DNA of 64,000 nt from Sipunculus nudus (taxonomy: Eukaryota > Annelida > Sipuncula > Golfingiida > Sipunculidae), in contig CM049309.1 in assembly GCA_026874595.1 (NCBI GenBank), forward strand, positions 18,370,576 to 18,434,575. The letters are read 5' to 3'. Of this stretch, positions 5,295-63,726 are shown piece by piece. Each line of letters begins with the position of its first letter. Positions within the stretch are counted from its first letter, which is position 1. The notes beneath the pieces are model-generated. The model was not told where the DNA came from. It did no database searches and saw only the letters and a program-made list of their open reading frames with translations. Made by a program: the position numbers and the translations under genes.

Positions 5295-19754
<14,460 letters not shown>

Positions 19755-20291
19755 GGTTTAACACGGACAAGTTTCCTCGAAAAGTACATGCAAGCAGATT
19801 TGATGATTGATATACACAAACTCGTCAGCCGATGTAATTATAATTTGCCCCGTGTTGTCCCCAGTCCAATGTACATGCAAGAAATGCCCTACTTTTCCCG
19901 TGTATGTATAAGTTCAGGGTATAGGCCTATGCAATCGCTTGTCTCGATAGGTTGCCGCAGTTGCACCAAACTATGTCAACACGCGCAATCGTATTTCCAG
20001 GTCAAAATCTGGGACTAATCCAAGGTTGCAGTCATTGATTTATTCACCAGATATCGCAGATGTTATTATCCGTACAGGCCTGCTGCACGGTAACCTGACG
20101 TTGTTACCGAATGGTGCAGCAGATATGTGAAATATTGAGTTTTTTTGTGCATTTTATTATTAAAGTTTAAACTTTTGAACAAAGCTAAAGTTTGCGTGGC
20201 CTTAAGACTGCTTTTGAGCACCGGACCATCGCAGATTTTAACGAGAACGAGAGCAGCGGTCATTTTTAAGACGGTTGCCCTTGAGCTTTGG

Positions 20292-21945: not shown

Positions 21946-43364
<21,419 letters not shown>

Positions 43365-47179: not shown

Positions 47180-47288
47180 ATGGGAGTCCCGCTCATGTCT
47201 GCATCAGAATGGGAGGTCATTGTTGTGACCTTCTCGATGTTGCTCAGCGCTTTTCATTCTGGTAAGAACTGATTTCTTATCATGCCCC

Positions 47289-47577: not shown

Positions 47578-48880
47578 TTATAACCTATAACGAAAGGTCA
47601 CATATCCTATATGCGTCTTTTCTTCCCTTCTACATGCATTCAATATAATATTATTTCTATGGTGCAAACATTAAGAACCACCAGAACACGAATGCCGATC
47701 AGATCAGCTTTTTACTATGAGAGACCCCGATAGGTCATTCAGTTCAAACACAACTGCTCAGCAAGAAAAGGGCTTAAAATGTATACAGTTTAAAGAACAA
47801 TAAAAGATGGAAGGAATACTGGAAAATTTAGGTTATGGCAGTGGTGCAGTTTAACTTCAAGGGTGGGGAGATGACTCCCAAGGCAATGGATTGTCATCAA
47901 TGTTGGGACAACTTTTTTTAGGCAAATAACCAGGTTTTAATATATAATATTTCATAGTAAACTCAGAAATGGAACCAAAGTCTATAATTCTAATTATTGA
48001 TATATTTAATTTCCAATAATTAAATATTATTCTTTTGAATATTGGGGGTGGGGGGGGGGGGGTGATTACATTGACCATCCCCCCTTGCTTTAAAATGAGG
48101 GATATATATAATCCCCCCTGTATTGACGTCCCTGGGTTTCAAGATGAAGGAAACAAAAATTGGTCCATGGCCTTGTTACCAAAAATAAACTTTCAATGAA
48201 AAGTAAAACAAATAACGCTGAAGGAAGCCATAATTATTCTTATCATATTTACTATGTTTTAATCTTCTATTTGCCTGAAAATGGCGATAATATAGGTTTG
48301 CATTTGACTCGGAGATTACACGATCTGGCTATGTGTACCGGTGTAGTTTACTATCAGGACAGCGCTTCACTTGTTGCCCTGAAATGTTTGTTCTTCATTC
48401 AAAATGAAATAAATAAATCTTTGAAAACTTATTAAAACCTTATTTATAATTAATTTAAAAGAATATTAATTCATAAAGTTTTTATCTTTCTTACACATTT
48501 GCAGTAGGCCTATGTACTGAGAACATTCCCTTCCCATTTCACCAGTGGTCTATCGCTCAACAACTAACCCACGTTACCGACTGGCAACATGTAGCAGTAC
48601 TGCAAGAACAGGAAGACAACTGTTCTGACGCCATGTTCCAGACCAAACCGAACTCGAAACCGGTTACGGTTATTGTGGAAACGGCTTGTTCACAAAATGG
48701 GACAGTATCACTTGACCTGCTGCTATTAGCGGCAAAAGAGAGAAAAATTAATCGATTTCTCCTCGCTGTTCGCTGGATATGTTTCGACGAATTATTTGAC
48801 GAGGTACATGTATATAAACTTTGATAAAAGTGTAAATACTCATGTGGTTTAAAATATCTATTCGCATATTTATCAATTCA

Positions 48881-48948
<68 letters not shown>

Positions 48949-51900
48949 TTCCTAAAAATATATTTTTTATAATATATTTAGATTCCATGAATTTAGCATA
49001 AACTAGAATTATAGCATGAATGTACATGTATACTTCCGCCAAGGAAGAAGACTGCCCACTTATACCAATGAATGTCTCTGGCCTTCGGCTGGGATAAAGA
49101 AATTTGCCTATCTCAACATGAACAAAAACTTTTAAATTAAAAAAAAAAGAAATATTATGGTGATTCAGAGTACCTCCTTATATTAATGGTTTGTTCCTTA
49201 CGTATACATTAATCCTGCACGAATTGCAATACTGTATGAGCACAGTGACTATCTGAAATAAATATAACCAGCAGACATAGTAACCGACTATGGAAAACAC
49301 GCGCCACCTGTGGGAGGTATCACAAATGATTAAAAAATGGGAAAATTGTTTTTAGAAAATACATCTAATTGATACATTAGCTCTTTTCTGCAGATAATAT
49401 CCCTTGAGAAGAGTAATCAAGGATATTTCACCTTTATATCAGAATGGATTATATTAGCAGATGGAAGGACAGAACTTCAGCTACAAAACCTATCACTTCC
49501 TTTTTATCATGTTACCATGGTTACGAGAAACGGCAAAATATACACCCTGGTGAGGAACGGAAGCACGTCCATCTTGAAACAGTCAGAGAAGAGTATTCAT
49601 GACTCCACAGCTGCTGAAAATATATTCCCAAACCGCCCGTATGGTTTTTGTGGAAAACACTTTACGGCCGCGACGCATTTAGTAGGTTTTCCTTTCTACT
49701 GTTAATTGGAAATGGGCCACAGGAATGAAACTAGACTCTATGTCCTGACAATTAAATGACTATATTTGGGTCCATAAGCAAATGTTTATGTTAACTGCAG
49801 CTTTGTAGGAAATCTTGTGAGTGTATATGTAATATTTATATATGTGAAGGCAAGAGATTAACTACTTTATGTTTGACTCTCTATGATGTATATCAAAGCT
49901 ATACTGAAAATATTCAAATTGACAGCCACAACTAGTGACACTTAAAGTGTACACTGATTAAATATATTTGTTTATAATGATTGAATCACATCTGATTTAT
50001 CATTCTATATGTTGAGATCACGCTCTAGGTTATATTTTTTTTTGCCTCTTACTGTCTTAAAAAGCCCAGATCTCTGTTTGACCAGTCTCGGCAATGTTAT
50101 GGTACATTTATGCGCTTTACCTTATAAGCAATAAATATTCGTTCTTGGATTATAATTTTTCATTTCATATACAAAAATACTTAAAGAAAAAGAATTAATT
50201 TGCTGGAGGTAAATGCTTGCCTTTTTCAGTATCCCGGCTTCACTGAAAAAGTCACTGACGGCGGGAAGGCTGTTTACAGTGGCTACATCATCACAATCAT
50301 GGACATGCTTGCCAAAATTCATAATTTCAGGTGAATCCACTTTTTTTCTTAAATGATGCAAATAAAACATTATCTTTAGTACGACATCGATGTGCTAAGG
50401 CCTAATTATTACTGTATCTGTCATCACTCATATCCGCTAATGTCCACATTATTTCTTCCTTTCGTGTATCATAACCCCTGTATGAAAAACTTTAGAATAC
50501 AGATTAATGTAGGTATTGCATCTATCATCTTTGCTTATCATGAAATTCTTCCGAACAGTTCTTACATAAAAAAATCTTATTAGCAAAGTTTTGGCATTGT
50601 GAATATAATCTTAAAATTTGTCTGGAAAAAATCAACTCTTAATTTAAGGTTTTGATATTAAAAACAGAGCTGCCTTTGTTATGATCAAGCAATACTGATG
50701 ATTACACAGCTAAAACTGGCTTTGCGGTAGACACCGGGCCTTGGTGAAACAAAGATACAAAATATAATATGACAGAAAGCGAGTGCTATACCGTTGTGAT
50801 GTAGTCTCAAACTAAAATAGACCTCTGCAGTTGTACATAGTTCGATTAAAAATTATACTAGAAAATCACTCAGAGAGCGCAGACCTCCGCCTAGGCAGCT
50901 CATTACCTCCTAAGGCATTGTCAGAAATGCAGCATTTTTCCTTAAACAATTTCCTTAATCCGGATAGTAATCCGGACCACCGGAAAAATTTAATCACTTA
51001 TTCCTTGTATCAATATCGGCCTTTCCTTAAAATTTAATCAAAATGCGGTAAAATGTTTTGAGTAATTTTGCTAACAGACAAACAGACCGACAAACAAATC
51101 AAAGCCGAATAAACCATAACCTAATTGGCGGAAGTTATAAGGCAGCATTTAAAATGGAAGCGATTAAATTAACCAAAAACGACCTTTCAAAAAATAAAGA
51201 ACGATAGAACATATTTTTTGAGAAAATAATATCTCTTTATTCAAATAAGCTCTTTGGTCCTTATGGAATACTTTATATTTAATACTGATTATCCGCCTTT
51301 TGTAGTTATACGCTGGTAGAGCCGGTGGACTGTGAGTGGGGCGCTTTAAAAAATGGCTCATGGACGGGACTCATCGGGATGGTTCTCAGGAAGGTTTGTG
51401 CGTAATGTTTTCACTGTAACTATTTAAAATCCAATAGACGCACGTGATGTTATTTTTTACCCAGCTTTTGAGAGAGTGATCTTTCTTTCTCTGGTGGCAA
51501 TATAATATTGTTACTCTTGCAACAGTTTTCTCACAACACTTGCACCCCTAGTTGGTACGAGATAACGCGGTGTAGGGCTATGACTGAGAAAGTGTTTGTA
51601 GAGGAAAGTATGAAAACCATGTTGAAATTCGGCCGACGAAATAAATTGAGTGTTCGGGTCCGCAACACCACACTTTTTCAACTTGGATGATTTTTCATTG
51701 ATTTAAAAGGACCTATTCCGAAATCTGAAGTTTCTTAACTAAAGATATTCCCCTGAATGTTTAAAAAAAATAGGCTAGAAAACATCACACGATTTTTTTT
51801 ATGTTCACATGATTACAACATGTGGGGACCTGCAATGATTATATTAACACATTCAACAAGGGCATCTTGCAACATGCATGTCAGAGTTCTGCAAAATACA

Positions 51901-54900
51901 TTTTGCAGCTCAAGAACTTTCGCACCATGTTAACTGCTACCTCGTAGAAAAATAAGTTCAAATAATGCATCTGTCAAAAAGCCGTCATACGAACTTTTCT
52001 TTAAGTTTATTATATTTAAGCGGAGTTACCCTGAAATAACGAAACGTCTACAAAAAACGACGGGGAATAGCTGGCTTTAAACTAATGTTAATTCACAATA
52101 AAAACTGTATAAAATGCCAACTTCATTACTTGTATCTTGTTATACCCATTTTTGAGATCCCTGTGCCTTTAACTAAATTTACAAAAACTTTTTAACAATT
52201 AAAAGAGCGTGGTAGTGATAATTTGTATATTAATCTAAATATAGGCCTGGGCAGTCGAAGGGTAAAACACTCGGCTCTATCTGCTGTGACCCGAGTTCAA
52301 TCCTCAGCTTGGCTTGGAGAGAAGGTTGTAGTTTCCCGTCCAAAGGGTTACCGTTTCCGGTTTCCTCCATCAAACAATACCGAACTCCACCACCTGAGCC
52401 ATGGAGAGTGCCTTGATTAATTAGAATACCTATATATTAACAAGCCATTGTAAAATAAAGGTAATAGTAATTATTAATTATTTGTGTCATAGGAAGTCGA
52501 CTTTGTAAGTGCGGCCACGACATTGACGGCCGAGCGAGAGGACGTCGTTGACTTCGCCTACCCTTATTTCACAAACTACAAAGTAGTCATCGTCAAGAAA
52601 ACCGGTCTGGCAGCCGCCACGTGGAAGGTTTACACCCAGCCTTTCAGTATAACTCTGTGGGCTGCCACTATAATTGGAGCTCTCCTTATTTCCGCCATGT
52701 TTTGGATATTTTCCAAGACAGGAATACCTGACAGGTGGTCAGAGAATATAAGCGATATTTTATTCTTCACTTTCGGGGCTTTACTTTTCCAAGGTTCGTT
52801 TCTTTTATCCTTTTTGTTTTATCTGTTTGGTTTACATACATATGATTTTGGTCAGATAATTAATTTGGGTAGCTTCCCTAATCATATTTACTTTATCAAC
52901 GTGAACAGTTTGCCCTGTTTTGGTAATCTTAAAATGTAAATATTATGCTTACAGTTAAATAGGGACCAGCTGTCTTGATTGTATTTGTCATGCATATAGG
53001 ATTGAATATTCCAAAATTAAAGGTTTTTTGCTAGCGTTATTGGTGTTGTCTTCTTTAATACCCTTTGGGCATGAAGATCTAACCTATACACAATTGTTTT
53101 ACAATACATTGACTTGTAACACGTTAACTTGTTACAGGTTGTGCACGCCAGCCAATGTCAGGTTCTCTGCGGATATTGTTCGGGACCTGGTGGTTATTTT
53201 GTGTCATTTTGATGCAAACATACATGGGTAACCTTGTGGCCTCTTTGGCATCAGACAGAGAGAAGCTACCCTTTAAGACTGTTGAAGAAATGGTGGAGCA
53301 GGAAGCGATAAAGTACGGGGTCATGGCTGGAGAGGAGTTTACAGCATATCTACAAGTGAGTTTACCAGTACCCTTCTCATGCAGCAATTATACTCTGCAG
53401 TCGTCCAAGTGTAACCGCTACCCTGTATGGTAAGGTTCTCTGGGCATGACCACCAGGGAGGTGGAATTGTATTCAGACCAATGAGAGCGTGGTATCGTAT
53501 TGTACATCCAGTCCAAGTTTAAACATTTGACACCAGCACTTTGTGGCCTGATCACGCTGATACACCCACTTTTGTTGGTCAGATTCTTGGCAAACTGCCA
53601 AAACCGGTGTAATCATACCAACAAGAGCTTTGGTTGCATGTTTAAAATTTGAGGCTGGATGCACAATGCGATACCACGCTCTCATTTGTCTAATAATAAC
53701 ATTTTGCTCTGTGCCTACACTGGTGGTTATGCCCAGCGAACCTCGCCGTACCAAGAAGCGGTAACACGAAGGGATGTCTGGAAACGACTGCATTGTACAA
53801 CCGCAGAGGGAGTAGCGTAGTTTCCCGTCTTGAATCAAGTCTTTATTTAAAGATAATAAAATTGTTTTAACATTTCACTACCTGCATTGTGTCATCCCTT
53901 GTCTTTTCTCTTTGTCAGTCTTACCATATTCTGTTATACTTTTATCCAAATCCTTATCTACATTCTATTTTTTTCTGCCTTTGTCCTTTTTGTTTCAGGA
54001 GTTCTTGCGTTGGGGCATATCGTTCGTATGGGTTTACCAGAGACCGAGTTCATACGGGCTGGGTGCATCAGAGTTGCTTCTGACAGTCTAGTCTGCGCTG
54101 TGATAGCACCATCCCGAAAAAAAATATCAATTTTTTTCAAGATTTTTTAATGTGATCCAATAATCACAAAATCAATCTGCTGTAATCCAATAGTGGTTTC
54201 TTGTAATAATCCCGAAAGCAAACTGGAGACAGGCCGCACTAAATCTGCATAGAGTTGGTAGAATTTCTGTAATTACTGTAATTATCGGATAGGTCCCAAA
54301 ACGGACTCACACTCTTCCGTCTCCGCTGGAATATTTCTCTTCCCTCCTCGCTCTGAAACACAGCCCCAATTTATAACTTTTCATCCGAAAATTCCGGAAA
54401 CTTCTATTTCACGAACAATTGAAGGAACCCAACAATAAATAGTACAAACACCCAAATAATATTACAAGACACGCGACCGGCCCAGAAATTTTGAGATTAG
54501 CACTGTGTCTATACACGCCAGGGTCACAGCCGGCCCAGCTCACGCGTCTCCCATGGCTACGGACAATGCTGGCGCTACACAGACACATGTAAGACTGCTG
54601 CACACAATAAAAGAGACATCTCTAACACTCCCCCTCCTGTAAGAAACAAAAGATAGTTTTCTAAAAAAAACTTTCTTTTTGCGATCACAATCACTAATTT
54701 TACACTTCAACTTGTTCATGACCGTGAGGGGATTGTGATTACTGAAGACAATGATAGGCTTGACTGATAAAGTTCTATAAACTTCAAAATGTTGCAATGC
54801 CAAAATCAAAGCCAAACATTCTTTTTCAATAGTGGAGCACCAGCACCAGCAGCAGTATCCCTAGCATCTACAGCTATCTTAAAAGGTACAGAAAAGTCTG

Positions 54901-57900
54901 GAGCTACCTAAACGGTGAACTTTGCAGAATTTCTTTCGAATTCTGAAATACATTTTTACACTGAACATTCCATACAAACTGTTGTTTCTCTTTAACAAAT
55001 CAGTCAAAGGTTCAGCTACGGCAGAAAAAAATTGGACAAAACTTTCTGTTATATCCAACCATACCAAGAAAACGCATTATTTGCTTTTTAATTTTCTGGT
55101 CTAGGAAATGCAGAAATAGCACTTATTTTAGCATCAACAGGCTTTACTTGACCCTGCCCTACAATATGACCCAAAATGTTATTTTTGCATGATAAAACTC
55201 AGATTCAAATAAGTTGACGGTCAGACGTGCTTCACTGAGTCTTTCGAAGAGGTCGCGAAGAACTCTCAGGTGTCTCTGTACACTATATCACGATACAGGT
55301 CATCAATATATGCGTCGCAGCCCTGAATGTCCTTGACAACCATATGGATGAGGCGCTAGAACGTGGCTGGAGAGTTCTTCATGTCAAACGGCATACCTTT
55401 ATACTGGTACAGTCCTTGCGGCGTCACAAATGCGGACACTTCTTTCGCTCGTTCTGTCAGCAGAACTTGCCAGAATCCTTTTAGTTAGTCAAACTTGGAG
55501 ACATATCTGGAACTACCGACTCTATCAATACAATCATCGATCCTCGGAATCGGGAACGTGTCAGTCTTGGTGACAAAGTTCATTTTTCGATAATCTGTGC
55601 ACATACGGTAGCTTCCATCAGGTTTTGGCACAAGAATACATGGTGAACTCCAGTTACTGTTACTAGGTTCAACAAAATCATTATCCAGGAAATACTGAAC
55701 CTCATCTTGTAGATACTTTTGCTTTTCTGGATTAAGTCTGGATTAAGTAAGAAGGTTGCTTGACAGCGCTTGCCTTGAAAACATCGACGCCATGGCACTA
55801 AACAAATGTTCATAACTACGCAGCAGGTTCTTGAGGTCTTGTTGTTGTCGTGCGGTAAGGTGTGACAGTTAGGCATCCAGGTTGTTAAGCACGTCTGAGT
55901 TTTTTGTAATATTGTTCCACACTGCATGTCTGCATCACACTTACAATCAGTATCTACTTTAACTGGGTCAGGGTCAGTTTTTACACAATTAACAGCAGTA
56001 ACATTATGTACAACATCTGATGTGCTATTTCTGTCATAATATGGTTTCAACATGTTAACATGGCACATTTTTTAACGCCTATCTGGTTTTAACAGTATGT
56101 AATTTAAATCACTGACTTTCTTGTCAACAATGTAAGGACCAAAATACCTAGCTTGCAGAGGTCTGCCAGGGATGGGTAGTAAGGCAAGGACCTTTTCATC
56201 AGGCTCAAACGTCCTATTTACTGTGTGGTTGTCATACTTTGTTTTCATTTTACTTTGTGCAGATTTTAGATTTGACTTTGCAATGTCACAAGCATTGTGT
56301 AGTTTAGTGTGAAAATCTGAGACATACTGCAATAAACTAAGAGAATCAGGATTTTCACACAAGAGTTTTTTTAAGCAGTTTTAAAACTAGTTCAAAGGGA
56401 CTGAAACCTAAGGACTCTTGAAAGGATTCGCTGACAGCAAACAGCAATAGGTTGATTCTTTCATCCCATTCTTTCTGTGTGTTATAACAATAAGTCCTAA
56501 TCATGTTTTTTAATGTCTGGTGAAACCGCTCGAGGGCGCCCTGACTTTCAGGATGGCACGGAGAAGAGCTGTACTGTTTTATACCTAGCTCAAGCATAAC
56601 TTGTTGGAATAAGCCAGAGATAAATAAGGCCCTTGGTCAGACTGGACAGATTTTGGTCATCCAAAAGTTGTAAAAAACTTAGTCAGAGCCTTGACAATAC
56701 TTTTGGCATTAATTTTGCGCAATGGTATTACCTCAGGGAACCTGGCGCACATTATTGTCAGCAAGTATTCATGTCAAAAGTATTTTGTTTTGGGCAGTGG
56801 TCTAAAACAATCAACAATAATCCTACTAAATGGTTCCTCGAAAGCAGTAATATGCCTAAGTGGGGCTTTAGGAGGATTCTGATTTGGCTTGCCCACTATC
56901 TGGCATGTATGGCATGATTTACAATATTGTACAACATCAGTCCTGAGGTTAGGCCAATAGAAGTGTGTACTAACTTTCTGATAAGTTTTATTTTACATAA
57001 AAACAAACTGGGTTCTGTGACAGTTCATCTTTAGAAACTGCCCTGGGAAACAAATATCAGGGTCCTTATGCTGTTCCGCGATAAGTTCTGACCTTGAAAA
57101 TGCTGCATCCTGTACGGGCGAGTCGTTAGACGAGTCACTAGTGACTCCCAGAGTGTTATTATCTGGGCCATCATCCTCATGTGTGTTTTTCTTAGCCATA
57201 GATCTAGTTACAGCACATGAAGGATACAAACCAAAAATTTTATGACTTTCAGGATCAGTGTCCTGATCAAGTGACGGTTTTTCTGCCGCTGTTGGTACAG
57301 GCTGTACTTTGTCACCTGCAACATCATTGCCTAGTATCAACTGAATTCCCTTAAATGATAAAGTAGTTCTTATGCCCACAGTAATATTCCCAGAAATCAA
57401 ATCTGACTTTAAATATATCCTGTGAAGCGGAACTGAAGTGTGCTTGTCTGAAAAAAAAAACATTAACAAGTGCATGTGCACCAGTAAAAGACCTATTAGA
57501 AAATGGCAAAGTGTCTGCTAACATGAGAGTTTGGCCTAAACCAGTGTGCCTCAAAATTCTAATAGGGGTAGAATATGAAAAATCACTTGAAAGTGATACA
57601 AAACCATCATGTATGAATGGCTCAAATAACTCCATTTCAGAGTCAGGAGAGGAATCTACTACCACAGTTTCATCAAACAAAGAAATGACACTTACAGTGT
57701 CAGTCATAAACTCTTTTTCAGAGTCATTAAAGGAATCTATATCCTTATTACAATGAAATTCCTCATGGGAGTCAACAGAGGAATTTCCTCAGCAGAAACA
57801 AACTTCTGTTTGTCATAAGAGGACCTGGCCTCATTTGTAATACTCTCGCAAGAGTCATAAAGGACTTAGCCTTATTTAGTGGATATTCCTCGCAGGAGTC

Positions 57901-60358
57901 TTGAAAGGACCTAGCCTTATTAAATTCCTCGCAGGAATCAATTGTGGTTTTTACCCCGCAAGCTACAGATTCTTCTTTGGAGTCAGACGGCAAGTTGGCC
58001 TCCGTAGCATCAAACTCTTTATTAGAGTCAATAAAGGAGTTGTACATGAAAAGAGCTTGGCTCTTGTAATATGCTATGCATAGATTTTGAAACAAAACTA
58101 AAAGGTTTATCCTTTGGTTTATTTGCAAGTTTCCAGCAGTCAGATATTAGATGACCTTCCTTTTTGCAGTAATTACAGATTATCTTTGAAAATGACTGGC
58201 CTTGGTTCGATTCAAACACAGTGGACTGAGGTGTAGCAATGGACTTTGCTGAACTATCAGGACTACTAGTACAGGGTGACTGCGCTTTAAATTTCTTTTG
58301 ACCATACTGATTTACATTCTTTTTTGTGAATGACTGGTTTGATTTGCTCGTTAATGACATTTTGTGTGTTAATGAATAATCATCAGCTAATTGAGCAGCA
58401 ATGTCAAGTGATTCAGGACTATTCTCATCGAGAAAAATGTTAACATATGCGTTAATGCAGCTCTTAAATTCTTCAAGCAAAATCAACTGGCGCAAATTGT
58501 CATAATCTTTCATTACATTTCTAGAACTAAACCAGTGATCAAACAACTGCTCTTTTGTCCTAGCAAATTCTACGTAGGTCTGTTCTTTGAGCTTTTCCCA
58601 ATTTTTGAATTTCTTGCGGTAAGCCTCCGGATCTAACTCATAACCCTTAAGGATTAATCGTTTAACCTGGTCGTAGTCAGCAGCGGCTTCTACTGAAAGC
58701 TCTGTATAAATTTCTCTGGCCTTGCCAGTTAATACACTTTGTAATAGCATAGTCCAATTTTCCTTAGGCCATTTTAAATTTTCAGCTACCTTCTCAAAGT
58801 GTAAGAAATATTTATCAACCTCTTTTTCTTGAAAAGGTGGGACAAGTCTAATGTGTTTCGTAACATCAAAACTGTGAGATGGAGCAGCACGTAGACTATT
58901 TATTAGTTTAAGTCTTTTTAACTCCAGTCGTTTTAACTCAATTTCTTTATCTTTTTCTTTCTTTTTTAATGCTTGCTCATGTTGCATTTCTAACTTTTTT
59001 AATTCTAACTGCATGGCAAGGATGTCATTTCTTGATGTTTCCTCTTCACTCTCTTCAATCAAACCTATGCTAACTAGATCCTGCATGATTTTAGCAATGA
59101 TATCATGCTTTCTCAAAGCATTTTTCACACTTAGCCCTAAGTGTTGTCCCAAACGCAAAAAGCCAGGGTCACACGTGGGCCGGCCCAGCTCGCGCGTCAC
59201 CCATGGCAACGGCCAATGCTAGCGCTACACAGACACATGTAAGACTGTTATATAAGAGACATCTGTATCAATATGCATGTTATTTTTATAGACATATATG
59301 CATGTTATTTTTATAGACATATGCATGTTATTATCATAGAAATCTTCATGTTATTTTTATAGGCATATGTATATTATTATTATAGACATATGCATGATAA
59401 CGGAGTTTCACATTACCATTAGGAACAATACACTCCTTAAAAGTGGTTATACAATGCATGAATCTCCGGGTTTCACCACTAGGGCTCACACAGGGCAAAC
59501 ACACTGTAATCAGACTAATTAGAGCGTGGTACCGTACTGTGCAACCGGCTCCAGGTTTTAAATCCGCGACACCCCGCTCTTGTTGGTTTGATTCTCGGCA
59601 CTGTGCCAGCCCTGGTGTTTTGACCCCGAATAAGTTACTAAACAAGGCAGCGTTTAAAACGAAGGAGATTTGGAACGAGTGAAGTGTATGACCACTACGT
59701 GAGAAGTGTGGAGTGACTAAAAGAAACCATAAAACAAGTGAGACAAAACCTTACGTATCCATTTTCAGAACCACGCAGACAAGGCAGGATACCCCTTTAA
59801 TAAACTACGCGACAAGATTGAGGAGTTCAGCCGAAACGATCCAAGTACTAAACACACCGACTACAAATTCCACTTTGATAAGGTCCTGCGTGGTGGGTAT
59901 GCAACGTTTTTCGACAGCCAGGCCTTGGCTAACCTGCTGTCAAATCACAATAACCTGGCTACGTTTGATGCCGGAGTGTCAGCCAAACATTACAGCCTGG
60001 TGTTCGCGAATAATTCTGCATACACAGACTTGTTCTCAAACACGTGAGTGTATTTGGTAGTAAAATAGACTTGTTCTCAAACACGTAAGTTGCATGTGGC
60101 ATTAAAATACCTCCAAATGCGTTAGTTGGAATCGGTTATACACTAAACTTGTTCTCAAAGGCTTAAGCAGGAACTGGTTGTAAAATAGACCTGTTCTCAA
60201 ACATGCTGAAACCACCAGATAGTATATTAAACTTGTTCTAAAACTTGTGAGCGAGAAACGGTAGTAAAATCGACTTGTTCTAAAACTGGTGAGTAATCTT
60301 TAATATTCCGAAAGGTTCTCACTCGGGCGTAGACTGTTACAAAAATGTTACATTGGGA

Positions 60359-61209: not shown

Positions 61210-61491
61210 ATGTAAATTTCAGATTAATCTTTGCACACGCGCTTAAGATATAGCTAGGTAAATTTAATTCCATCTTTATTGATATGCTTAACGTATAACA
61301 CGTATTTTTCACATTACAGGATCAAACGACTGCGAGCCTATGGCTTTTTGAAACAATGGGAGAAGAAATACTGGCCAATCAAACGAAAGCAGAAGACTAT
61401 CCAAGGCATGCGTATAGCATTTTCACATGTTCAAAGCGTCTGTGCTCTGGCAGGTGTCATGGTGTTTACAGCATTCCTGGTTCTGTTATAG
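47180..61491 (+). CDS. Ionotropic glutamate receptor / IR-like channel subunit; 9 coding exons
   Basis: Ligand-gated cation channel subunit of the plasma membrane. Exons: 47180-47261, 48505-48803, 49394-49681, 50230-50330, 51306-51393, 52493-52793, 53138-53355, 59769-60043, 61320-61491; 1824 nt, 607 aa plus TAG, phases consistent throughout. Order: signal peptide (1-27), short N-terminal domain (about 28-222), S1 (about 224-335), M1 (about 337-359), pore loop GALLFQG (381-387), M3 ending TYMGNLVASL (414-423), S2 (about 425-580), M4 (about 585-607). The chain ends directly after M4 with no cytosolic tail. Arg301 in TLTAERE fits the alpha-carboxylate-binding Arg of iGluRs, and Asp508 fits the acidic amino-group ligand. 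The N-terminal region is about half the usual iGluR length, and the SYTANLAAF-type gate is degenerate, so an IR-like role is likely. The ligand is unknown. Confidence 0.9.
48882..48946. repeat. (TA)n microsatellite
   Basis: About 65 bp of TA in receptor intron 2, 80 bp past the exon 2 donor. Another TA tract lies at 47541-47575 in intron 1, with (TTA)n and (CA)n at 47291-47346. Confidence 0.95.
52223..52475 (+). mobile_element. tRNA-derived SINE-like repeat, family B, plus copy
   Basis: A-box-like GGCAGTCGAAGGG and B-box-like CGAGTTCAATCC, then GTTGTAGTTTCCCGTCC, GAGCCATGGAGAGTGCC and the tail ATTGTAAAATAAAGGTAATA. It ends about 17 nt before receptor exon 6 (52493), so the acceptor region of that exon is SINE tail. 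Confidence 0.8.
52493..52793 (+). CDS. Receptor exon 6: end of S1, M1 and pore loop
   Basis: Encodes EVDFVSAATTLTAEREDVVD with Arg301, M1 and the pore SDILFFTFGALLFQG. The donor is GTTCGT, the same atypical hexamer as CYP-A exon 5. Confidence 0.93.
53138..53355 (+). CDS. Receptor exon 7: M3 and start of S2
   Basis: Encodes CARQPMSGSLRILFGTWWLF, then TYMGNLVASLASDREKLPF and KYGVMAGEEFTAYLQ. The S2 GST/T-type ligand contact seems replaced by GEE. Confidence 0.93.
53440..53770. mobile_element. Head-to-head pair of family C SINE-like copies
   Basis: The left arm contains ATGAGAGCGTGGTATCGTAT and the right arm its inverse (ATACCACGCTCTCAT), with further matching TTTAAACAT and TTGTTGGT blocks; they meet near GGCAAACTGCC (about 53590). 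They form a foldback of about 120-bp arms in receptor intron 7. Confidence 0.75.
54098..54627 (-). repeat. 3' LTR of the gypsy element
   Basis: On the minus strand it begins TGTTAGAGATGTCTC right after the polypurine tract. It contains TATAAAT (about 54370) and shares about 105 bp with the 5' remnant at 59167-59272. The far edge is uncertain (54098 or 54151). Confidence 0.65.
54640..54900 (-). pseudogene. RNase H domain fragment of the gypsy element
   Basis: Minus-strand frames give APDFSVPFKIAVDA and then LILALQHFEVYR, SVKPIIVFSNHNPLTVMNKL, patterns of Ty3/gypsy RNase H. The C-terminal part is missing: the frame runs straight into the polypurine tract and LTR. Confidence 0.7.
55140..55690 (-). 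pseudogene. Reverse transcriptase of the gypsy element, with stops
   Basis: Minus-strand translation shows WSSPCILVPKPDGSYRMCTD, YRKMN, then VSKFD, a stop, LKGFWQV, SAFVTPQGLYQYKGMPF and the catalytic YIDD. At least four in-frame stops are present. It lies downstream of the integrase on the coding strand. Confidence 0.85.
56072..56990 (-). pseudogene. Integrase of the gypsy element, frameshifted
   Basis: Zinc-binding region FYWPNLRTDVVQYCKSCHTC, core residues in IIVDCF and QSDQG, and the third acidic residue in HPESQGALERFHQTLKN. A C-terminal SH3-like part follows with ARYFGPYIVDKKVSDLNYIL and HVNMLKPYY. Several stops and frameshifts interrupt the core. Confidence 0.83.
57200..57650 (-). pseudogene. 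Aspartic protease of the gypsy element, catalytic Asp replaced
   Basis: Minus-strand frames give IRILRHTGLGQTLMLADTLP, then VPLHRIYLKSDLISG and QLILGNDVAGDKV. The family motif is DTG; here it reads HTG (codon at 57545-57547), so the protease is predicted dead. A frameshift near 57450 splits the domain. Confidence 0.75.
58028..59209 (-). pseudogene. Gag of the gypsy element (393-aa frame, CCHC knuckle)
   Basis: Longest open frame in the window. Features: Lys/Glu/Leu-rich coiled coil (about residues 62-100), a capsid-like helical domain (about 120-300), and a zinc knuckle CNYCKKEGHLISDC (about 345-358). The frame is lost after the knuckle and continues in another frame toward acidic Ser/Glu repeats (57772-58020). 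The first residues of the frame come from LTR sequence, so the native gag N terminus is missing. Confidence 0.85.
59167..59272 (-). repeat. 5' LTR remnant fused to gag
   Basis: Shares AGCGCTACACAGACACATGT, then AAGACTG, and GGCCGGCCCAGCTC...CCATGG with the 3' LTR, but homology stops at GACCCTGGC and passes directly into gag. The rest of the LTR, the primer-binding site and the leader have been deleted. Confidence 0.75.
59455..59660 (+). mobile_element. SINE-like repeat, family C, plus copy
   Basis: Most intact copy: AATCTCCGGGTTTCACCACT, TTAGAGCGTGGTACCGTACT, B-box-like GGTTTGATTCTCGGC, CAGCCCTGGTGTTTTGACCC. It lies about 110 bp upstream of receptor exon 8. Confidence 0.75.
59769..60043 (+). 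CDS. Receptor exon 8: S2 with Asp508
   Basis: Encodes NHADKAGYPFNKLRDKIEEF through GGYATFFDSQALANLLS to AYTDLFSNT. The GTGAGTG donor lies in the first unit of the 41-bp array that follows. Reading past the donor meets TGA at once. Confidence 0.93.
60029..60300. repeat. 41-42-bp minisatellite carrying copies of a splice donor
   Basis: CTTGTTCT or CCTGTTCT cores at 60029, 60070, 60148, 60190, 60232 and 60274, with a degenerate unit between 60070 and 60148. Unit 1 is the end of receptor exon 8 plus its donor (AACACGTGAGTG). Unit 2 carries AACACGTAAGTT; the last two carry GTGAGCG and GTGAGTA. Confidence 0.9.
60362..60401. repeat. (TA)n microsatellite
   Basis: TA repeat in receptor intron 8. Confidence 0.95.
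61174..61208. repeat. (AG)n microsatellite
   Basis: GA dinucleotide tract of about 34 bp, about 110 bp upstream of receptor exon 9. Confidence 0.95.
61320..61491 (+). CDS. Receptor exon 9: end of S2, M4 and stop
   Basis: Encodes IKRLRAYGFLKQWEKKYWP and M4 (ALAGVMVFTAFLVLL), then TAG. No C-terminal cytosolic tail. Confidence 0.93.
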
Positions 61492-63653: not shown

Positions 63654-63726
63654 AAGTGACAGTGACCTTATTTTCGTTTTCCCAGTAAAATCTTCTTGGA
63701 AAACGAAAATAAGGTCGCTGTCACTT
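63654..63726. repeat. 30-bp-arm hairpin
   Basis: Left arm AAGTGACAGTGACC then TTATTTTCGTTTTCC; the right arm is its inverse with one mismatch and one bulge; loop of about 12 nt. Confidence 0.85.

Follow-up and report, generated by a model that had tools for sequence, protein, structure and literature searches.

In Sipunculus nudus, the 3′ end of exon 8 of a receptor gene runs into an array of tandem units that is a genuine, decaying duplication of the splice donor of this exon. We class the array as a mirage, i.e. a minisatellite of a duplicated exon-intron boundary, which is a previously known type. At a probability of about 80%, the boundary segment was duplicated in a common ancestor of the receptor gene and a nearby inverted pseudogene, and the present array is a decayed mirage that is tolerated and spliced mainly at unit 1. 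According to this explanation, a segment of 41-42 bp across the boundary between exon 8 and intron 8, donor included, would have been duplicated in tandem in that ancestor, presumably by slippage or unequal exchange, and the copies would then have decayed as intron sequence. The spliceosome would use mainly the unit 1 donor, and units 2 and 7 would give rise to minor transcripts at most, encoding a receptor that ends ...DLFSNT and lacks M4. In all likelihood, the array is tolerated since the first donor still yields the full receptor.

Gene model of the receptor

The window, i.e. the whole stretch of 64,000 nucleotides that was analyzed (G000:C4:18370576-18434575, in a genome of 1.43 Gb), contains a receptor gene of nine exons (Table 1) encoding 607 aa with no stop inside the frame; the frame allows four splice choices that are nearly identical (606 or 607 residues). 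The 607-aa protein matched the Pfam models for the glutamate-binding lobe (PF10613, Lig_chan-Glu_bd, 1.6e-19) and for the channel (PF00060, Lig_chan, 1.2e-21), and exons 8-9 alone matched none of the Pfam models. When exons 6-9 were used as query, the best solved relatives were delta-type glutamate receptors (GluD1, phmmer 1.5e-24). The gene model is sound, and the predicted protein, with its ligand-binding domain and M1-M3 channel, is of the ionotropic glutamate receptor type.

Exon 8 aligned with GluD1 through DLFS. Its 3′ end is in phase 2 (...DLFSN/T) with two bases over, and exon 9 picks up at G ATC AAA. The GluD1 alignment ends before M4, and M4 was therefore assigned by hydropathy, which reaches its maximum in exon 9 at VQSVCALAGVMVFTAFLVL (2.23), together with a matching segment in three paralogues. 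Thus, the predicted M4 is located in exon 9, after the ligand-binding domain. The receptor TAG (61489-61491) stands directly behind M4 (...FLVLL, then stop), the paralogues L008, L010 and L011 run on with a short tail (e.g. LVLLYEGLV...), and the pseudogene copy has a tyrosine codon at the place of the TAG; it looks as if the C-terminal tail of the receptor had been lost.

Other features of the locus were also recorded. Intron 7 contains open frames on the minus strand (window ~54540-59218) with a gag-like zinc knuckle and a polymerase-like piece, which we take to be putative Ty3/gypsy-type retrotransposon pieces. Upstream of exon 8, the intron contains a minisatellite with a 23-bp unit (59271-59396), present in 5.4 copies in the window gene; the pseudogene copy has 25 (L002 2296-2869). 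Beyond the gene, an inverted repeat was noticed by eye at 63654-63726, its two arms (63654-63682 and 63698-63726) being about 29 bases long.

Table 1 Positions in the window of the receptor exons, the units of the exon 8 array and the CYP-B array (a slash marks the splice site or the corresponding place in a unit)
Feature	Position	Strand	Remarks
Receptor exon 1	47180-47261	+	
Receptor exon 2	48505-48803	+	
Receptor exon 3	49394-49681	+	
Receptor exon 4	50230-50330	+	
Receptor exon 5	51306-51393	+	
Receptor exon 6	52493-52793	+	
Receptor exon 7	53138-53355	+	
Receptor exon 8	59769-60043	+	Acceptor CAG 59766-59768; open frame joins exon 9 in frame
Receptor exon 9	61320-61491	+	End of ligand-binding domain, predicted M4, then TAG
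Unit 1	60026-60066	+	Authentic donor CAC/GTGAGT at 60044; spans exon 8 end
In-frame stop TGA	60045-60047	+	Reached at once when unit 1 donor is unused (read-through ACG TGA)
Unit 2	60067-60108	+	Donor CAC/GTAAGT at 60085
Unit 3	60109-60146	+	Decayed; TGC/GTTAGT at 60121
Unit 4	60147-60186	+	GT lost; GGC/TTAAGC at 60163
Unit 5	60187-60228	+	GT lost; CAT/GCTGAA at 60205; no clear counterpart in pseudogene copy
Unit 6	60229-60270	+	Donor CTT/GTGAGC at 60247
Unit 7	60271-60311	+	CTG/GTGAGTAA at 60289; strongest spare donor by U1 pairing
CYP-B array	22641-22933	-	63-bp x 4.6; spans acceptor TTTTAG/ACACG of CYP4-like exon, start 22671

Seven units at the exon 8 donor

An earlier note on this DNA had described a donor array of about seven units at receptor exon 8. 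The array is real and comprises seven head-to-tail units of 38-42 bp from 60026 to about 60311, which were cut at the starts given in Table 1; the 3′ limit of unit 7 is our own cut. Unit 1 consists of 18 bases from the very end of exon 8, followed by the 6-base donor and a further 17 bases of intron, and the exon-intron boundary reads AAACAC/GTGAGTG at 60043/60044. TRF (score 50) reports units 1-2 only (60026-60109). For the 26-base exon/donor core, the scores of units 2, 4, 5, 6 and 7 (43, 26, 29, 27 and 31, respectively) all exceeded 24, the highest score reached in 2000 mononucleotide shuffles, each of five 41-base pieces; the shuffle preserves single-base composition only. The score of unit 3 (11) was within chance (95% = 16), and this unit is recognised only through its position and its likeness to pseudogene unit P3. 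GT is kept at the donor place in five of the seven units and was lost in units 4 and 5.

Predicted strength and consequences of the spare donors

Calculated U1 duplexes of the window units amounted to -7.7 kcal/mol for unit 1, -5.7 for unit 2, -1.8 for unit 3, -4.4 for unit 6 and -10.8 for unit 7; in the pseudogene the values were -7.4 (P1), -2.8 (P2), -0.7 (P3), -4.5 (P4) and -4.6 (P5). Donors were also scored by base frequencies, using a local matrix, which ranks units only roughly, and a human-type matrix. The 45 donors behind the local matrix were seven from the receptor, three from receptor paralogues, 17 from the 20 sampled CYP4 exons (three letter-identical to others were dropped) and 18 from CYP-A/B, where the GT with the best score close to an alignment edge was taken. 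On both matrices, units 2 and 7 outscored unit 1. The GTAAGT of unit 2, previously proposed to be better than the true donor, is indeed better by base frequency (5.16 vs. 3.38 on the local matrix, 3.86 vs. 3.52 on the human-type matrix) but weaker in U1 pairing. The donor of unit 7, which had been passed over, is the strongest spare donor by U1 pairing and on the human-type matrix (6.16), and with 4.68 it comes slightly under unit 2 on the local matrix. Since unit 7 beats the true donor in U1 pairing and unit 2 has the better base frequencies, real competition is possible. On the human-type matrix, the best other GT in 1 kb of intron 8 (42 GT sites) reached 3.39, about the score of unit 1, so that predicted strength alone is insufficient to settle donor use.

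As the earlier note had stated, reading on past the authentic donor meets TGA at once. This stop stays in frame with any spare donor, and the predicted protein would therefore end DLFSNT; the loss of M4 upon use of a downstream donor thus follows from the frame, as a prediction. Use of the unit 2 donor would add 41 nt and place the stop 37 nt before the last junction, whereas use of the unit 7 donor would add 245 nt with the stop 241 nt before the last junction. In vertebrates, nonsense-mediated decay follows a 50-nt rule. By this rule, decay would spare the unit 2 product and act on that of unit 7. As for the protein, M4-deleted NMDA receptors are reported to assemble and to reach the surface, yet not to function; earlier work cited in the same paper had found lowered surface expression of NMDA receptors upon loss of M4, and AMPA subunits without M4 that were kept from forming tetramers (PMC8517087).

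Origin of the array

A protein search of the genome with exon 8 gave six matches among the best-scored candidates: the window itself, two pieces of an inverted copy about 20 kb downstream, and three paralogues (L008, L010 and L011) with an open exon 8 of 48, 43 and 40% identity. In all three paralogues the donor lies in the same place (GAAAC/GTAAGT, GAGAC/GTACGT and GACAC/GTAAGT) and a matching exon 9 follows, and TRF at score 40 found no array at the donor in any of them. Because the paralogues share the place of the donor and lack the array, the donor is the most likely source of the array. Away from the donor, L008 has some short arrays, and in L010 an array of 34 bp x 9.2 lies upstream of exon 8, off the junction (546-857).

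The inverted copy is a pseudogene, with two length differences in exon 8 (one base and two bases) and an exon 9 start that was unrecognisable in the alignment. It has five units, compared with seven in the gene, and GT stands at the donor place in all five (one haplotype). As the pseudogene shares the array, an array of several units predates the duplication that gave rise to gene and pseudogene. The proposal that the array had grown from the exon 8 donor is thereby supported, with conserved coding sequence in unit 1, paralogue donors without array and a pseudogene that shares it.

In order, P1-P5 answer to window units 1, 2, 3 or 4, 6 and 7. Identity was 95% between window unit 1 and P1, 81% between unit 2 and P2 and 85% between unit 6 and P4. 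The pairing of units is not clean, however. Window unit 2 is equally close to P1 and P2 (81%), and P3 is 80% like unit 4 and 65% like unit 3, yet groups with unit 3 in the unit tree (0.82), in which branch supports range from 0.00 to 0.91. Unit 7 and P5 are weakly alike inside the unit (53%), and from the unit 7 donor onwards 49 of 62 positions match. The two window units without counterpart reflect either a gain in one copy or a loss from the other. Gene and pseudogene differ at 26/273 sites in exon 8, at 13/149 sites in that part of exon 9 which could be aligned, and at 133/790 sites in intron 8 beyond the array. Twelve of 50 exon 9 codons differ, two of them silently, as expected with one copy dead.

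Arrays at other exon junctions

The earlier note had pointed to a further junction array within 40 kb, in a CYP gene. Two adjacent CYP4-like paralogues with ten matching exons lie on the minus strand of the window (5298-19757 and 21952-43367), and of this pair only the second (CYP-B) has the acceptor array. The array is real and spans the acceptor (Table 1). Its intronic part was covered by one of 11 DNA matches to the CYP-B query, the match to itself; the other ten begin at query position 271 or later, so that among these sequences the array is restricted to CYP-B.

We compared 52 internal junctions of the receptor, CYP-A and CYP-B with chance, counting a junction when it lay at least 10 bp inside a TRF array. 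Two of the 52 were counted, against 1.27 expected when arrays with periods of 10-150 were shifted circularly (P 0.39) and 3.74 with periods of 10-500 (P 0.84). An alignment-based test, which is sensitive to decayed repeats, likewise gave 2/52 (score at least 36) against 2.48 expected, an expectation raised by the microsatellites and transposon arrays among its controls. In both tests receptor exon edges were 0-2 bases off the later gene model and CYP exon edges were alignment edges; the CYP-B acceptor was taken as 22687, where the sequence has it at 22671, both within the array. Thus, the pair of arrays in the window is real and not unusual, and the suggested excess of arrays at junctions over a shuffled expectation is not supported in the window.

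Beyond the window, 1.6-3.0% of positions lay inside minisatellites in four sets of sampled loci; 30 loci from a P450 family search, with single-long-open-frame genes ranked first, served for array density only. The sample of CYP4 exons comprised 20 of 67 matches to one CYP-B exon (ranks 2-22 without CYP-A, which is in the window). Among the 40 junctions of these exons none scored at least 30 in the alignment test, against 2.64 expected, and none was counted under the strict 10-bp rule, against about 0.8 expected (40 x sampled density). A third junction array, with a 35-bp unit repeated about seven times and units containing GCCGCG/GTAAAT, was found by TRF and by eye at a CYP4 exon donor in two related genes on G000:C10, L055 and L060. 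In L055 the array seen by TRF extends only some 5 bp into the exon, that of L060 begins 14 bp past it, and with scores of 21 and 24 both remained below the threshold of the alignment test. Altogether, junction arrays recur in the genome, without excess over minisatellites elsewhere in what was sampled.

Discussion

For amphioxus mirages, Canestro 2002 is cited (PMC3087553). These are described as tandem repeats across exon-intron boundaries, at the 5′ or 3′ splice site, with unit lengths of 10-72 bp in Adh3 and about 150-160 bp in globins (PMC3087553). Reported cases are Adh3, the globins BflGb6 and BflGb9, PGBD5 and troponin C; splice signals are present in many, not all, units, and RT-PCR results suggest regular splicing (PMC3087553; PMC3902484). 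Like these, the receptor array crosses a boundary, as unit 1 begins in exon 8 (60026) and contains the donor (60044), it carries splice signals in part of its units (GT in five of seven), and its unit lengths are inside the reported range. Unlike the amphioxus mirages, its units are much decayed, common to a gene and a pseudogene, and located in a gene of the glutamate receptor type.

Repeat units at the 3′ end of an exon that offer extra donors also occur in human IFI6 (6-16, G1P3), the repeat unit of which is short. Two downstream units of the IFI6 minisatellite are reported as used donors (PMC4526556). The receptor array differs in its units of 38-42 bp and in the immediate stop; the strength of its spare donors is predicted. 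In human segmental duplications, paralogues are reported to contain internal tandem repeats with on average four 30-bp units, some at exon-intron boundaries; these repeats add length to an exon or intron, and new introns may arise from those at boundaries (PMC2812944); in the receptor, in contrast, open frame and intron position are unchanged. Repeats inside an intron are reported from earthworm (PMC12783039). Among the titles listed in the literature on bivalves and splice-site VNTRs, none was on a junction-spanning mollusc array, which does not prove absence.

Could the array be a splicing switch, the spare donors being in use for a regulated isoform that is M4-less or targeted for decay? 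The U1 pairing of unit 7, stronger than that of the true donor, and the near-consensus donors kept in units 2 and 7 would fit, as would the used repeat donors reported for IFI6 (PMC4526556); a C. elegans paper, by its title, ties intronic minisatellites to alternative splicing. As M4-deleted NMDA receptors are reported at the surface without function (PMC8517087), M4-less subunits could moreover act dominantly. We nevertheless consider such use unlikely, since the pseudogene counterparts of units 2 and 7 (P2 and P5) pair weakly with U1, GT was lost in two window units, amphioxus mirages are reported to splice normally (PMC3087553; PMC3902484) and the case comes from one sequence, that of the window. 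A graded version, in which unit 1 faces competition from the donors of units 2 and 7, so that number and sequence of the units tune the amount of working receptor, is quite unlikely; unit 2 would then yield a stable M4-less subunit (37 nt) and unit 7 a product targeted for decay (241 nt). Several observations nonetheless speak against a tolerated mirage: the predicted strength of units 2 and 7 leaves room for competition, GT in all pseudogene units is less decay than expected of quite free donors, the units of the two copies do not pair cleanly, and the donor minisatellite of IFI6 does supply used donors (PMC4526556).

It is very unlikely that exon junctions are hot spots of minisatellite birth in this genome, e.g. 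via R-loops or pausing at splice sites. Three separate junction arrays (receptor donor, CYP-B acceptor and the donor of the CYP4 pair on contig C10) would be in line with it, but neither the window junctions, by circular shift or by alignment, nor the sampled CYP4 junctions reveal the excess it calls for. An origin from a dispersed repeat, or from the tail of a transposon that inserted at the edge of the exon, is hardly credible. The window is repeat-rich (42 TRF rows), but in a DNA search of the genome 60000-60300 matched two places only, itself and the pseudogene copy, and the exonic bases of unit 1 belong to conserved coding sequence of the receptor; as this search skips very common words, a common repeat is not fully excluded by it. 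The duplicated boundary that decays and is tolerated hence remains our preferred explanation.

The reading as a regulated isoform is cheap to test, although short reads may give false junctions between repeats (PMC10632439). The receptor locus offers a clean natural test, with unit 1 set against a stronger-looking donor 245 nt downstream, predictions on frame and decay fixed beforehand, and paralogues without array as controls. If boundary arrays in a repeat-rich genome are about as frequent as chance predicts, duplicated donors and acceptors are to be expected in many genes, and splicing must tell near-identical neighbouring donors apart.
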